DNA from: Arcticibacter pallidicorallinus
GTDB lineage: Bacteria > Bacteroidota > Bacteroidia > Sphingobacteriales > Sphingobacteriaceae
Assembly: GCF_003002875.1 (NCBI RefSeq)
Contig: NZ_PVTH01000015.1
Location: forward strand, 1 to 64,000
DNA: 64,000 nt
Reading direction: 5' to 3'
Made by a program: the position numbers and the translations under genes
Shown: positions 3,104 to 7,053 of the stretch, one piece after another
Numbering within the stretch: the first letter of the stretch is position 1
How the letters are laid out: every line of letters starts with the position of its first letter
The notes under the pieces: generated by a model
Database searches by the model: none
Told to the model about the DNA's origin: nothing
What the model saw: only the letters and a program-made list of their open reading frames with translations

Positions 3104-3116
3104 AAAAATAACTTCA

Positions 3117-3147
3117 TTGATGCGAGATTCAACGATAGGTACATTTG
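3117..3147 (+). promoter_or_regulatory. Bacteroidota-type promoter of the Aat-like gene
   Basis: TTG (3117-3119), a 20-base spacer and TACATTTG (3140-3147) match the -33/-7 consensus TTG...TAnnTTTG. Transcription would start near 3154, giving a leader of about 40 bases before the ATG at 3194. The gene would therefore be transcribed independently of the kinase gene. Confidence 0.5.
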
Positions 3148-3193: not shown

Positions 3194-3970
3194 ATGACAG
3201 ATACTTCTATTTCCGATTCCATACGGGCTTCAGTACCGGAAGCTGCTAAAGACTTTATTAGAAATTTCTTCTCTTCGGGCTTAACCAGAGTGTTAAAGGG
3301 CAAGGAGAATGTACTTTTATGGTCATACAGCCAATTCGAATTGTCACCATTCCTCCTCTACCAGGGATATGTACAAGGTAAGTATCCGCTACCCAGCACC
3401 CAACAACAGCATTTGATTAACTGGTATGATCCGGAAATAAGGGGAATAATACCAGTAGATAATTACAAGGTTAGCAAGGATTTGATGCGACGATTGAGAA
3501 AGGAACGGTTAATTCCAGACAACGAGAAAATCCAGATAAAACTGAACCTCAACTTCAGAGACACCATTCTTTGTTGTGCAGGACCCAGAGGGACTAAAAA
3601 CAAGACATGGTTGACTCCCGAATATATTGAAGCTGTGATTGAACTGCACGGGATGGGAATAGCGCACAGCGTAGAAGCATACCAGAATGGCTTACTCGTC
3701 GGTGGAGTTATCGGATTGTCGATAAACGGCTTTTTTGTGACTCTTAGCTTATTTCATACAGTTGACAATGCAAGTAAGATAGCATTTTGTTATCTTTTGC
3801 AGAAGCTGAAAGACGATGGTTTCAAGTTGCATCACTGCGGTGACGTTGGCTCCTGGTTAAGCCAATATGGGATGGTTCCGATCGAACGGGAGCGCTATAG
3901 GAGGGAACTTATGCTAGCCGTTACACGTCCGGTAATATTTAGTTCAAACATCCCTTCTCTTTGTTTGTAA
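3194..3970 (+). CDS. Divergent leucyl/phenylalanyl-tRNA--protein transferase (Aat) homologue
   Basis: The C-terminal two thirds align with Aat, the GNAT-fold enzyme that moves Leu or Phe from tRNA to protein N-termini. Recognisable blocks are GYVQGKYP near residue 60, KTWLTPEYIEAVIELHGMG, AHSVEAYQNGLLVGGV and DNASKIAF. Length (258 aa) is close to normal. Three positions important in E. coli Aat are changed: Glu156 aligns with Leu184, Asp186 with His214, and Gln188 with Gly216 (HHCG in place of IDCQ). The fold and perhaps tRNA binding look kept, but the canonical reaction is doubtful. It ends 53 bases from the convergent FemAB-like gene, another aminoacyl-tRNA-type GNAT protein. The family assignment is firm and the function open, so no gene symbol is given. 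Confidence 0.8.
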   Translation: MTDTSISDSIRASVPEAAKDFIRNFFSSGLTRVLKGKENVLLWSYSQFELSPFLLYQGYVQGKYPLPSTQQQHLINWYDPEIRGIIPVDNYKVSKDLMRRLRKERLIPDNEKIQIKLNLNFRDTILCCAGPRGTKNKTWLTPEYIEAVIELHGMGIAHSVEAYQNGLLVGGVIGLSINGFFVTLSLFHTVDNASKIAFCYLLQKLKDDGFKLHHCGDVGSWLSQYGMVPIERERYRRELMLAVTRPVIFSSNIPSLCL

Positions 3971-4023
3971 AATACCTTTTTACTGATGCAGCAGTCATAG
4001 ACCTGCCAGGAAACGACGGAGGT

Positions 4024-4992
4024 TTAAGTGGCCGAGGACGGAGTAAACGTCCACTTGTCACTACTTAGATAAAGGCGGGAGAAGCCCGACTTCCAATGAA
4101 AAAGTTTATCCTCATCAAAATTTAGTCCGCCTCCAAGATTGAAGTATTTCATACCCAGATTTCTTCCGATCACAGTTACCTGATCTAAAAGGAACTTAGC
4201 CGGTGATTCTGCAAGGTATTCTTGACGTGTTCCAATTAAATACCCCTGAATGATTCCATCTGTTAAGGTCACAAGGCTGGCGCATACCGGTTGTCCATCC
4301 GCAATAACGAAAAACAGCTTGACATCAAAATCGTCTGAGGCCATGAAGTCGACAAAGTACTGTGTGTCGAAGAGATATACCTCGTCAGCACCTATTCGCT
4401 TCATATTCTCCCAATATATCGAGATGAAAGAGTCGATATCTTCCGGACTTCCCTCTTTTAAATAGTATCCTTTTCGGCGCAGCTTCTCGATATCCCTCCG
4501 ATGGCCTTCCTGATAACCCTTTCTCTGCTGTTCAATCGAAGTGGAAAGATCTATGGCTACCGATTTACCTTCCTTGAATTCACCACCGAGATTTTCTAAT
4601 AGCAGTACCTGATCCATAAACGGATGAAGTCTCGCTGTAACCGTGCTAAATTCTCCCGCCTTCAAAAACTCAAGAAATTCTCTATCGAAGTCTTTTAAAA
4701 CATCAATATCCCAATCCTGAAAGTTCTTATTCGACAACGGGCCGGTGTAACCATAAACAGACGAAAGATAACGGTCAGAGGAATTCTTAGATCTTATTAC
4801 AAAAGGAAAGGAGATAAAATCTCCTTCCAACTCATAGATAATCAAAATGGGTTCTCCGCTTCTATCCAGCGAGTGATAATACCATGTATGATAGAAATCG
4901 TACTGAATTGAGCGGCTAATCACGTCTTTCCATTCGCACTTCTGATCCATTGTTATGACGCGAAGCCTATTTGGGCCCTGATAAAAAAACAT
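4024..4992 (-). CDS. FemAB/GNAT-like protein at the end of the EPS locus
   Basis: This cytoplasmic protein of about 322 aa has the paired GNAT-like arrangement of the FemAB family. The block GHRRDIEKLRRKGYYL (about residues 170-185) matches the basic R-R-x-I-x-K-x-x-x-x-G segment. The C-terminal YFNLGGG segment and the following FHWKSGFS are typical of FemAB-like proteins in exopolysaccharide clusters. Classical FemX/FemAB proteins add amino acids from aminoacyl-tRNA to lipid II. Those in EPS loci are thought to modify the glycan, but their substrates are mostly unknown. The start is uncertain: GTG 5025, ATG 4992 (chosen) and ATG 4950 are all possible. It is the last minus-strand gene of the locus. 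Confidence 0.78.
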   Translation of the reverse strand: MFFYQGPNRLRVITMDQKCEWKDVISRSIQYDFYHTWYYHSLDRSGEPILIIYELEGDFISFPFVIRSKNSSDRYLSSVYGYTGPLSNKNFQDWDIDVLKDFDREFLEFLKAGEFSTVTARLHPFMDQVLLLENLGGEFKEGKSVAIDLSTSIEQQRKGYQEGHRRDIEKLRRKGYYLKEGSPEDIDSFISIYWENMKRIGADEVYLFDTQYFVDFMASDDFDVKLFFVIADGQPVCASLVTLTDGIIQGYLIGTRQEYLAESPAKFLLDQVTVIGRNLGMKYFNLGGGLNFDEDKLFHWKSGFSRLYLSSDKWTFTPSSAT

Positions 4993-5145
4993 GCAATCTC
5001 TTAATTGTCGGGTGATAATTTTCACCTAAGGTCTAAAGCAATTGTTAGTTTATCAAACAAAACCACGATTTGCCGGGCGATTGGTTAATTAGGCGCCACA
5101 ATTTACTCACTTTCTGAATGAAGTAAAATGTTAACTGAGGACACC

Positions 5146-7053
5146 TTACTGAAGAATTACGGCCTCAGATCCTTTATAGAGAGAGTTCGTGCTATTGAAT
5201 TCAGGGACGATATCTTTCATTTTCCGTACTATAGCCTGGTTAGTGGAGCTCGCAGAAGCCAATGATACCAATTCTTCCAATTCGTTTCGGATGTAGTTAA
5301 AGTCATGGTGTATAACTTTTGAAATTTTGATCTTAGCATTGTCCGTAGGAATATTGTATTCCTCCTTATTCAGCAATTCTTCAAAGAGCTTTTCACCTGG
5401 TCGCAAACCGGTGCATACTATCTGAATGTCTTTTTCGGGCACCAGCCCTGCTAATTTAATCATGTTGACGGCGAGGTCGAAAATCCTGACGGGTTTACCC
5501 ATGTCGAAAATAAATATTTCTCCACCGTTTCCTATCGCAGAAGCTTCCAGCACCAGTTGTACAGCTTCGGGGATAGTCATAAAATAACGCGTAATATCAG
5601 GATGGGTGATTGTTATAGGTCCCCCCTGTTCAATCTGGCTTTTAAAGCGCGGAACTACCGATCCATTGGATCCCAAAACGTTTCCGAACCTGGTGGTTAT
5701 GAACTTTGTAAAGGGCTGCCAATGGCTGAGTGACTGGGTGTACATTTCCGCGATTCTTTTTGATGCACCCATGACATTGGTGGGGTTCACCGCTTTGTCT
5801 GTCGATATCATGACAAACTTATCGACCCTGTACTCTACTGCCAAATCAGCCAGCGTTCTAGTACCCGAGACATTCGTTGAGACCGCTTCCATAGGATTGG
5901 ATTCCATCATAGGAACATGCTTGCAGGCAGCTGCGTGGAAGATCATTTCAGGCCGATACAAATCAAACATCTGCCTTAGCCGCTTTTCATTCTGTATACT
6001 TCCCATAAAAACTCTGGTCAGGGAACCGAGAAAGTTGTCCTCCAGCTCTAGCTGCAGTTCATGCAAGGGAGTTTCTGCCTGGTCGAATAAAACCACATAT
6101 TTGGGATTGTAAGACAAAACCTGTCTTACAACTTCAGAACCAATTGAACCGGCGGCACCAGTAACCAAAACACGTTTCCCTCTCAGCTCCTTGTAAATAT
6201 TACTCTTGTTAAGTACAATTGGCTCCCGTTCCAGCAAATCTTCAATACGTAAAGCCCTGAACTGATTCAAGCTGAGTCTGCCATCTAACCATTGTCTTGA
6301 CGGAGGAACGGATACTACCTTGATATCCTTCTCTATACAAATATTAATGGCCCTATGCATACCCTCGACATCAGTATGGTTTTCCATCACCACTAATTTC
6401 CCGACCGAAAATTTTGACTTCAAAAAGCCTATTTGAGAAGAGGCATAAACTTTCTTTCGCTCAATTGACTTGTTCACTTTATCTTGTTTGTCATCCACAA
6501 AGCCAAGAACCTTCAGGTCTGACTCTGCCCCCGATTCGAGTGCATTTTTTATAAGGATGGAAGCGCTATCTGACCCGTAAATCAACACAACTTCCTTTTT
6601 CTGTTCCAACTGAAAGTCCTTTCTCAAATACTCGAAGAGGTGTTTTATGCTGATTCGGAAGATGATTAACAGGGATGTCGAGATGAAAAAATTGAAAATC
6701 AACGCGATGTTTAACCATTTTTCAATCAGATGCAGTTTCGGTAGCACAAGTAATTTACTCGTTACTCCAAAAAATATGCTCGTTAAGGTAACAGCCATAA
6801 GTACCCGGAACATATCGTCAGTACTGGAATACCTGATTATTCCAGTATGTATACGCATCGTCACGAAAACTACAATGGCTATCAAGCTATATAGTCCCAC
6901 ATACCATAGCGATTCTGAAGTAAAAAACTCTTGATACTCGAATCTGTTCGCCATGAGAAATGAAATCAGAAGTGCCCATGTAACGATTAGTTGGTCCACC
7001 ATTAGGATAAGCCAGCGAGAGTAGGCTTTCTCTGTGTAAAAAATTTTTTTCAT
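5146..7053 (-). CDS. Membrane UDP-HexNAc 4,6-dehydratase/epimerase (CapD/PglF/WbpM family)
   Basis: The 635-residue protein is of the long membrane form. Four hydrophobic segments fill residues 10-140, a first Rossmann-like domain about 150-270, and the SDR domain about 290-600. The SDR domain has the NAD-binding GAAGSIG at 299-305 and the catalytic block TDKAVNPTNVMGASKR at 418-433, with Met in place of Tyr in the YxxxK motif, as in PglF/WbpM-type enzymes. The expected reaction turns UDP-GlcNAc into the 4-keto-6-deoxy sugar. A DegT aminotransferase and a PglD-like acetyltransferase in the same locus would complete a bacillosamine-type sugar. The start is a good ATG followed by MKKIFYTEKAY. 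Confidence 0.92.
   Translation of the reverse strand: MKKIFYTEKAYSRWLILMVDQLIVTWALLISFLMANRFEYQEFFTSESLWYVGLYSLIAIVVFVTMRIHTGIIRYSSTDDMFRVLMAVTLTSIFFGVTSKLLVLPKLHLIEKWLNIALIFNFFISTSLLIIFRISIKHLFEYLRKDFQLEQKKEVVLIYGSDSASILIKNALESGAESDLKVLGFVDDKQDKVNKSIERKKVYASSQIGFLKSKFSVGKLVVMENHTDVEGMHRAINICIEKDIKVVSVPPSRQWLDGRLSLNQFRALRIEDLLEREPIVLNKSNIYKELRGKRVLVTGAAGSIGSEVVRQVLSYNPKYVVLFDQAETPLHELQLELEDNFLGSLTRVFMGSIQNEKRLRQMFDLYRPEMIFHAAACKHVPMMESNPMEAVSTNVSGTRTLADLAVEYRVDKFVMISTDKAVNPTNVMGASKRIAEMYTQSLSHWQPFTKFITTRFGNVLGSNGSVVPRFKSQIEQGGPITITHPDITRYFMTIPEAVQLVLEASAIGNGGEIFIFDMGKPVRIFDLAVNMIKLAGLVPEKDIQIVCTGLRPGEKLFEELLNKEEYNIPTDNAKIKISKVIHHDFNYIRNELEELVSLASASSTNQAIVRKMKDIVPEFNSTNSLYKGSEAVILQ

Follow-up and report, generated by a model that had tools for sequence, protein, structure and literature searches.

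An Aat-like paralogue beside a canonical aat gene

In the window (the whole stretch of 64,000 nucleotides that was analysed, from a host genome of 4.1 Mb), an open reading frame at positions 3194-3970 of the forward strand starts with ATG and encodes an Aat-like paralogue of 258 amino acids. The frame is uninterrupted, and the preliminary description had rightly called the protein full length and intact. The protein matched the Pfam family Leu_Phe_trans (PF03588) with 140.5 bits across profile positions 4-170 of 171 (gathering threshold, 22.7 bits), and this score, together with the L/F-transferase fold predicted by an AlphaFold model, places it in the family in the broad sense. Against the NCBIfam equivalog for aat (TIGR00667) it reached 117.9 bits, under the curated cut-off of 143.55 bits. 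The eight further paralogues that we compared also stayed under this cut-off (99-130 bits; nine proteins tested with the window protein), whereas two canonical Aat controls passed with 209 and 210.7 bits. By the equivalog cut-off and by the residues at Glu156, Asp186 and Gln188 (E. coli numbering), the window protein falls outside Aat proper (EC 2.3.2.6).

The same genome contains a canonical aat gene (L001, G000:C3:315566-316069, 244 bits), the kind of second copy for which a search had been proposed earlier. Its product belongs to the same family as the window protein and is about 35% identical to it, but it is acidic, keeps Glu, Asp and Gln in place and passes the equivalog cut-off with 209 bits. 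Canonical aat was found in all carriers of the paralogue, and clpS in 13 of 13. Because the window's genome has both a canonical aat with the Glu/Asp/Gln triad and clpS, those components of the standard Leu/N-degron pathway for which we searched exist without the window gene, and the Aat-like protein is not the cell's L/F-transferase. Since it belongs to the Pfam Aat family, the paralogue is an annotation trap.

Upstream of the gene, a candidate Bacteroidota-type promoter (-33/-7) of the form ATTG-N20-TACATTTG lies at 3116-3147 (+) and ends 47 bp before the ATG. This pattern match is the only one in the window, with 0.83 expected by chance over 64 kb and with this region having been inspected first. 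TAnnTTTG is also present at -51 in G657, G705 and G726, and a search of the + strand gave no site of the sigma-70 type. Of the promoter of its own that had been ascribed to the gene, a consensus match is what stands, which makes such a promoter plausible and a candidate.

A sparse subfamily in the Sphingobacteriaceae

We searched with a profile built from the window protein and a relative from Desertivirga arenae (which we take to belong to the Sphingobacteriaceae, the same family as the window organism), and we counted a match of E 1e-45 or better as strong. Among the 400 Sphingobacteriaceae genomes sampled, 13 carried a total of 15 intact copies. The same profile revealed no copy beyond the window's own genome in a sample of 395 genomes from across the class, and a profile made from all 15 copies yielded no new carriers among 300 genomes of the order. 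A phylum sample of 395 genomes had no match in the range from 132 to 589 bits, and those of its highest-scoring loci that were examined were canonical. The 15 copies formed one clade (support 100/100). The paralogues are a real, sparse Aat subfamily with an invariant motif of its own.

Two genomes contain two adjacent copies each, tail to tail and 53% identical in G715 (L065, C23:446343-447918), in tandem and 74% identical in G637 (L075, C24:62407-64734). G006 has a decayed paralogue remnant whose motif takes the HDSG form (L005, C5:57104-57493); the N-terminal half of this remnant is without a recognised open frame. Besides its intact paralogue and its canonical aat, G657 has a frame-broken remnant of the Aat family (C9:338424-338710), a sign of gene turnover.

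Replacement of the catalytic residues by a new invariant set

We aligned 48 canonical proteins (E. coli included) with the 15 paralogues and matched the catalytic positions by this sequence alignment; the canonical set is not a random draw but was assembled from proteins that best matched the window protein and from the carriers' own copies, and five wrongly translated loci (L008, L010, L013, L015 and L042) are excluded from it. When the window protein is aligned with Aat of E. coli K-12 and with Bacteroidota homologues, its Leu184, His214 and Gly216 stand exactly at the positions of Glu156, Asp186 and Gln188, as had been claimed. The triad is kept in 48 of the 48 canonical proteins. In all 15 paralogues Glu156 is replaced by Leu or Ile (14 and one, respectively; the codon of Leu184 is at 3743-3745, +) and Gln188 by Gly. 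Since every canonical protein keeps the triad and every paralogue is without Glu156 and Gln188, the substitutions do not reflect chance or an alignment error. Asp186 is variable in the paralogues (lost in 12 of 15), and because it survives in three members of the subfamily, the diagnostic losses are those of Glu156 and Gln188.

Residues 212-225 of the window protein (LHHCGDVGSWLSQY; 3827-3868, +), which include His214 at the Asp186 position and Gly216 at the Gln188 position, carry the subfamily motif LHxxG(x4)WxxQ[FY]. Within it His213 (at the Ile185 position), Gly216, Trp221 and Gln224 are invariant in 15 of 15 paralogues; Pro67 and Asp79 are further invariants that the paralogues have of their own. 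Within the canonical set 36 columns reach a conservation of 95% or more, and 23 of these are kept in at least 13 paralogues. The kept columns belong mostly to the core (W58, P61, R64, W111, G127, A129, S131, E133, G142-G143, F153, F159 and A165-S166-K167), and the blocks W58, R64, W111, H130-S-x-E133, F153 and NASK are shared with E. coli Aat. The columns lost or changed include Y120, L144 (Met in E. coli), Y145, G155 and M158 as well as E156, D186 and Q188; compared with E. coli Aat, residues E156, D186, Q188, Y120, Y145 and M158 are all replaced. The conserved Aat blocks HSVEAYQ (residues 158-164; 3665-3685, +), NASK (residues 192-195; 3767-3778, +; supported by alignments and model) and TWLTP are present in the window protein just as they had been described. 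The helix after NASK contains the paralogue-conserved Lys204 (present in 14 of 15 paralogues) and Lys206. Trp139 is invariant in the paralogues; its E. coli equivalent, Trp111, is in our reading one of the Trp residues against which Aat stacks the terminal adenosine. At E. coli position 49, Met is found for Trp (the FPMAD type) in 10 of 34 canonical Aats (L033-L043 and other Bacteroidota) and in eight of the 15 paralogues too.

Asp186 and Gln188 are described as the relay in E. coli Aat, and from their absence a different reaction had been inferred. The changed active site on which that inference drew was confirmed, but the step from it is weaker than assumed, since a passage of PMC4810233 (citing Fung 2011) describes E. 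coli Aat also as substrate-assisted, through "substrate binding and orientation". As far as that passage goes, transfer may survive without the relay, and the loss of Asp186 and Gln188 alone is not proof of lost catalysis. A substrate-assisted mechanism could likewise let a divergent but ordinary L/F-transferase tolerate the substitutions, and the paralogue does have the same fold and Pfam family. We nevertheless regard an ordinary L/F-transferase as very unlikely: nine of nine paralogues tested fall under the equivalog cut-off while canonical controls reach 209-211 bits, the genome already has a canonical aat, the triad is complete in all 48 canonical proteins, and the pocket and the acceptor cleft are altered together.

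Reversed charge and predicted fold

All paralogues are basic, with pI values of 8.9-9.6 (8.9 for the window protein) compared to 4.7-5.5 for the 14 canonical partners from the carrier genomes; the charge is thus reversed. Residues 1-46 of the window protein (3194-3331, +) make up a basic N-terminal extension with helices predicted at low confidence, which in such form is absent from canonical Aat in the alignment. The net charge of the N-terminal 40 residues is +1 to +11 in the paralogues versus -1 to -8 in canonical Aat, and the N-terminal helix of the paralogue is basic and mildly amphipathic. The extended, basic N-terminus and the invariant His213, Trp221 and Gln224 set the paralogue apart from E. 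coli Aat.

The AlphaFold model, computed from an alignment of 39 proteins, has a mean pLDDT of 83.9; apart from some weaker loops, the chain is well defined beyond about residue 50, and residues 1-46 are uncertain (pLDDT about 36-61). The predicted fold is that of E. coli L/F-transferase (PDB 2cxa, 2dps, 2z3k), with Z 24.1 and 2.6 Å over 207-208 residues for 2cxa/2dps, and the former Asp186-Gln188 strand corresponds to the predicted strand 212-216. The structure prediction that had been suggested earlier thus points to an Aat fold in which, judged from the aligned residues, the active site is changed. The next fold matches are FemX and Sba18 (PDB 6snr, 9wqy; Z about 13), which use aminoacyl-tRNA and share a GNAT-type core with the window protein, but which are larger, only about 10-12% identical and act on other acceptors; no FemAB profile matched the window protein. 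GNAT enzymes are also among the fold matches, and together with the basic, mildly amphipathic N-terminal helix they could indicate a paralogue outside tRNA biology, whose GNAT-like fold has turned to a different acyl donor, to a lipid head group or to a membrane. This is improbable, as the top structural matches outside Aat are transferases that depend on aminoacyl-tRNA, and the Trp111 equivalent is invariant.

Selection and horizontal movement

Pairwise dN/dS among the family copies was about 0.04-0.17, and about 0.11-0.13 for pairs with unsaturated synonymous sites (0.109 for G730/G762 and 0.134 for G664/G760). The window copy has a long branch and saturated synonymous sites, and the selection figures come from other copies of the family. 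Because dN/dS is about 0.1 between closer copies, the family is maintained by purifying selection, so that the earlier statement that the gene is maintained holds at the family level. The frame-broken remnants in G006 and G657 and the divergence of the window copy are what a decaying gene without function might leave. Such decay has hardly any probability here: the dN/dS values oppose it strongly, 15 copies are full length and intact, and the new residues are still invariant across copies that are 43-54% identical to the window copy.

We then compared the paralogues with the canonical proteins of the same genomes. The paralogues of G664 and G760, which belong to different genera, are 90% identical versus 59% for canonical Aat, while in G715 and G730, which belong to one genus, the paralogue (copy a) is 60% identical versus 93% for canonical Aat. 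Transfer between genera is the simplest reading of this mismatch, and the 90% versus 59% identity, together with the differing neighbours, argues that the gene moves horizontally. In the tree the paralogues branch outside the resident aat clade, but an AU test did not reject a joint Sphingobacteriaceae clade (p 0.34), so that they may stem either from the resident aat lineage or from another Bacteroidota lineage.

Clustering of the neighbourhoods of the 13 carriers and the G006 remnant gave an extended neighbourhood common to three near relatives only (G730, G762 and G667). The immediate neighbours are unrelated (sulfate permease, NorB, serpin, AlkZ, HolA, AraC), and an operon or context clue was discarded. 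Four other genomes of the window's genus have a homologue of the upstream histidine kinase without a paralogue after it. In G055 (L122, C1, about 3501-5889) the homologue of this kinase, which is of the 7TMR-DISM hybrid type, is divided between two reading frames. At 4024-5025 (-) the window contains a convergent FemAB/GNAT-like neighbour (PF13480) that adjoins polysaccharide-type genes; it was rejected as a partner, as other genomes have its relatives but no paralogue, and the two genes do not stay paired elsewhere. None of the viral contigs encodes a relative of the paralogue, PADLOC and PHROGs gave no match for the window protein at E 0.1, and the plasmid and phage matches are at most about 32% identical among the matches listed and are ordinary aat where annotated. 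Within these searches we reject a phage, plasmid or defence origin.

A possible change of specificity

Aat accommodates the amino-acid side chain in a hydrophobic pocket, and its conserved Trp residues provide the stacking surface for the terminal adenosine (PMC4052509); in related transferases Lys or Arg of a helix meets the acceptor arm of the tRNA (PMC10115844). The paralogues retain the counterpart of Trp111 and have additional basic residues, which would fit a protein that still binds charged tRNA. Because a new conserved set stands in place of the catalytic residues, a different job is probable. The existence of a mobile subfamily with its own invariant residues is stronger evidence for a changed function than the loss of the relay. 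We give about an even chance to the window protein being a neofunctionalised aminoacyl-tRNA-binding L/F-transferase paralogue, a mobile single-gene accessory in Sphingobacteriaceae with altered amino-acid or acceptor specificity. More tentatively, the paralogues may form a new mobile family of aminoacyl-tRNA-dependent transferases with an Aat fold, acting beside the standard N-degron pathway, in which His213, Gly216, Trp221 and Gln224 would be the active site and the substrate would be an amino acid other than Leu/Phe or an acceptor other than Arg/Lys.

In such a transferase, the 3' end of the aminoacyl-tRNA would be bound through Trp139 and the basic N-terminus and helix. Leu184, His213, Gly216, Trp221 and Gln224 would create a changed side-chain pocket and acceptor cleft, so that the enzyme could transfer a different amino acid or use something other than N-terminal Arg/Lys as its acceptor, and the reaction would proceed by positioning the substrates and not by the Asp186-Gln188 relay.

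The paralogue may instead be an inactive pseudoenzyme that binds aminoacyl-tRNA or RNA. It would then be kept for a regulatory role or as a stress factor, acting by sequestration of tRNA or by competition with translation or with the resident Aat. The loss of Glu156 and Gln188 in 15 of 15 copies and of Asp186 in 12, the strongly basic protein, the kept Trp111 equivalent and core, and the constant presence of an active-looking Aat in the same genome would all agree with this, and a role in binding alone could account for the invariant His or Trp. However, the new invariant polar residues His213 and Gln224 in the old active-site segment exceed the needs of a binder, and, going by the cited passage of PMC4810233, the relay may be dispensable for catalysis. 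We consider a pseudoenzyme possible but rather unlikely, and a transferase of changed specificity is favoured over a dead tRNA binder because the pocket and the catalytic strand are rebuilt and relay-free transfer is conceivable.

Aat is treated as a single-function enzyme. A selected paralogue family that has its key active-site residues replaced, is traded between genera and is kept beside the normal enzyme would be a natural experiment on the catalytic needs of the Aat fold, and it could reveal a new tRNA-dependent modification of proteins or metabolites. A precedent for another amino-acid or acceptor specificity is the Aat-type enzyme of Plasmodium, which has arginyl-transferase activity (PMC6135404); this enzyme is eukaryotic and is likened to the paralogue by its description.
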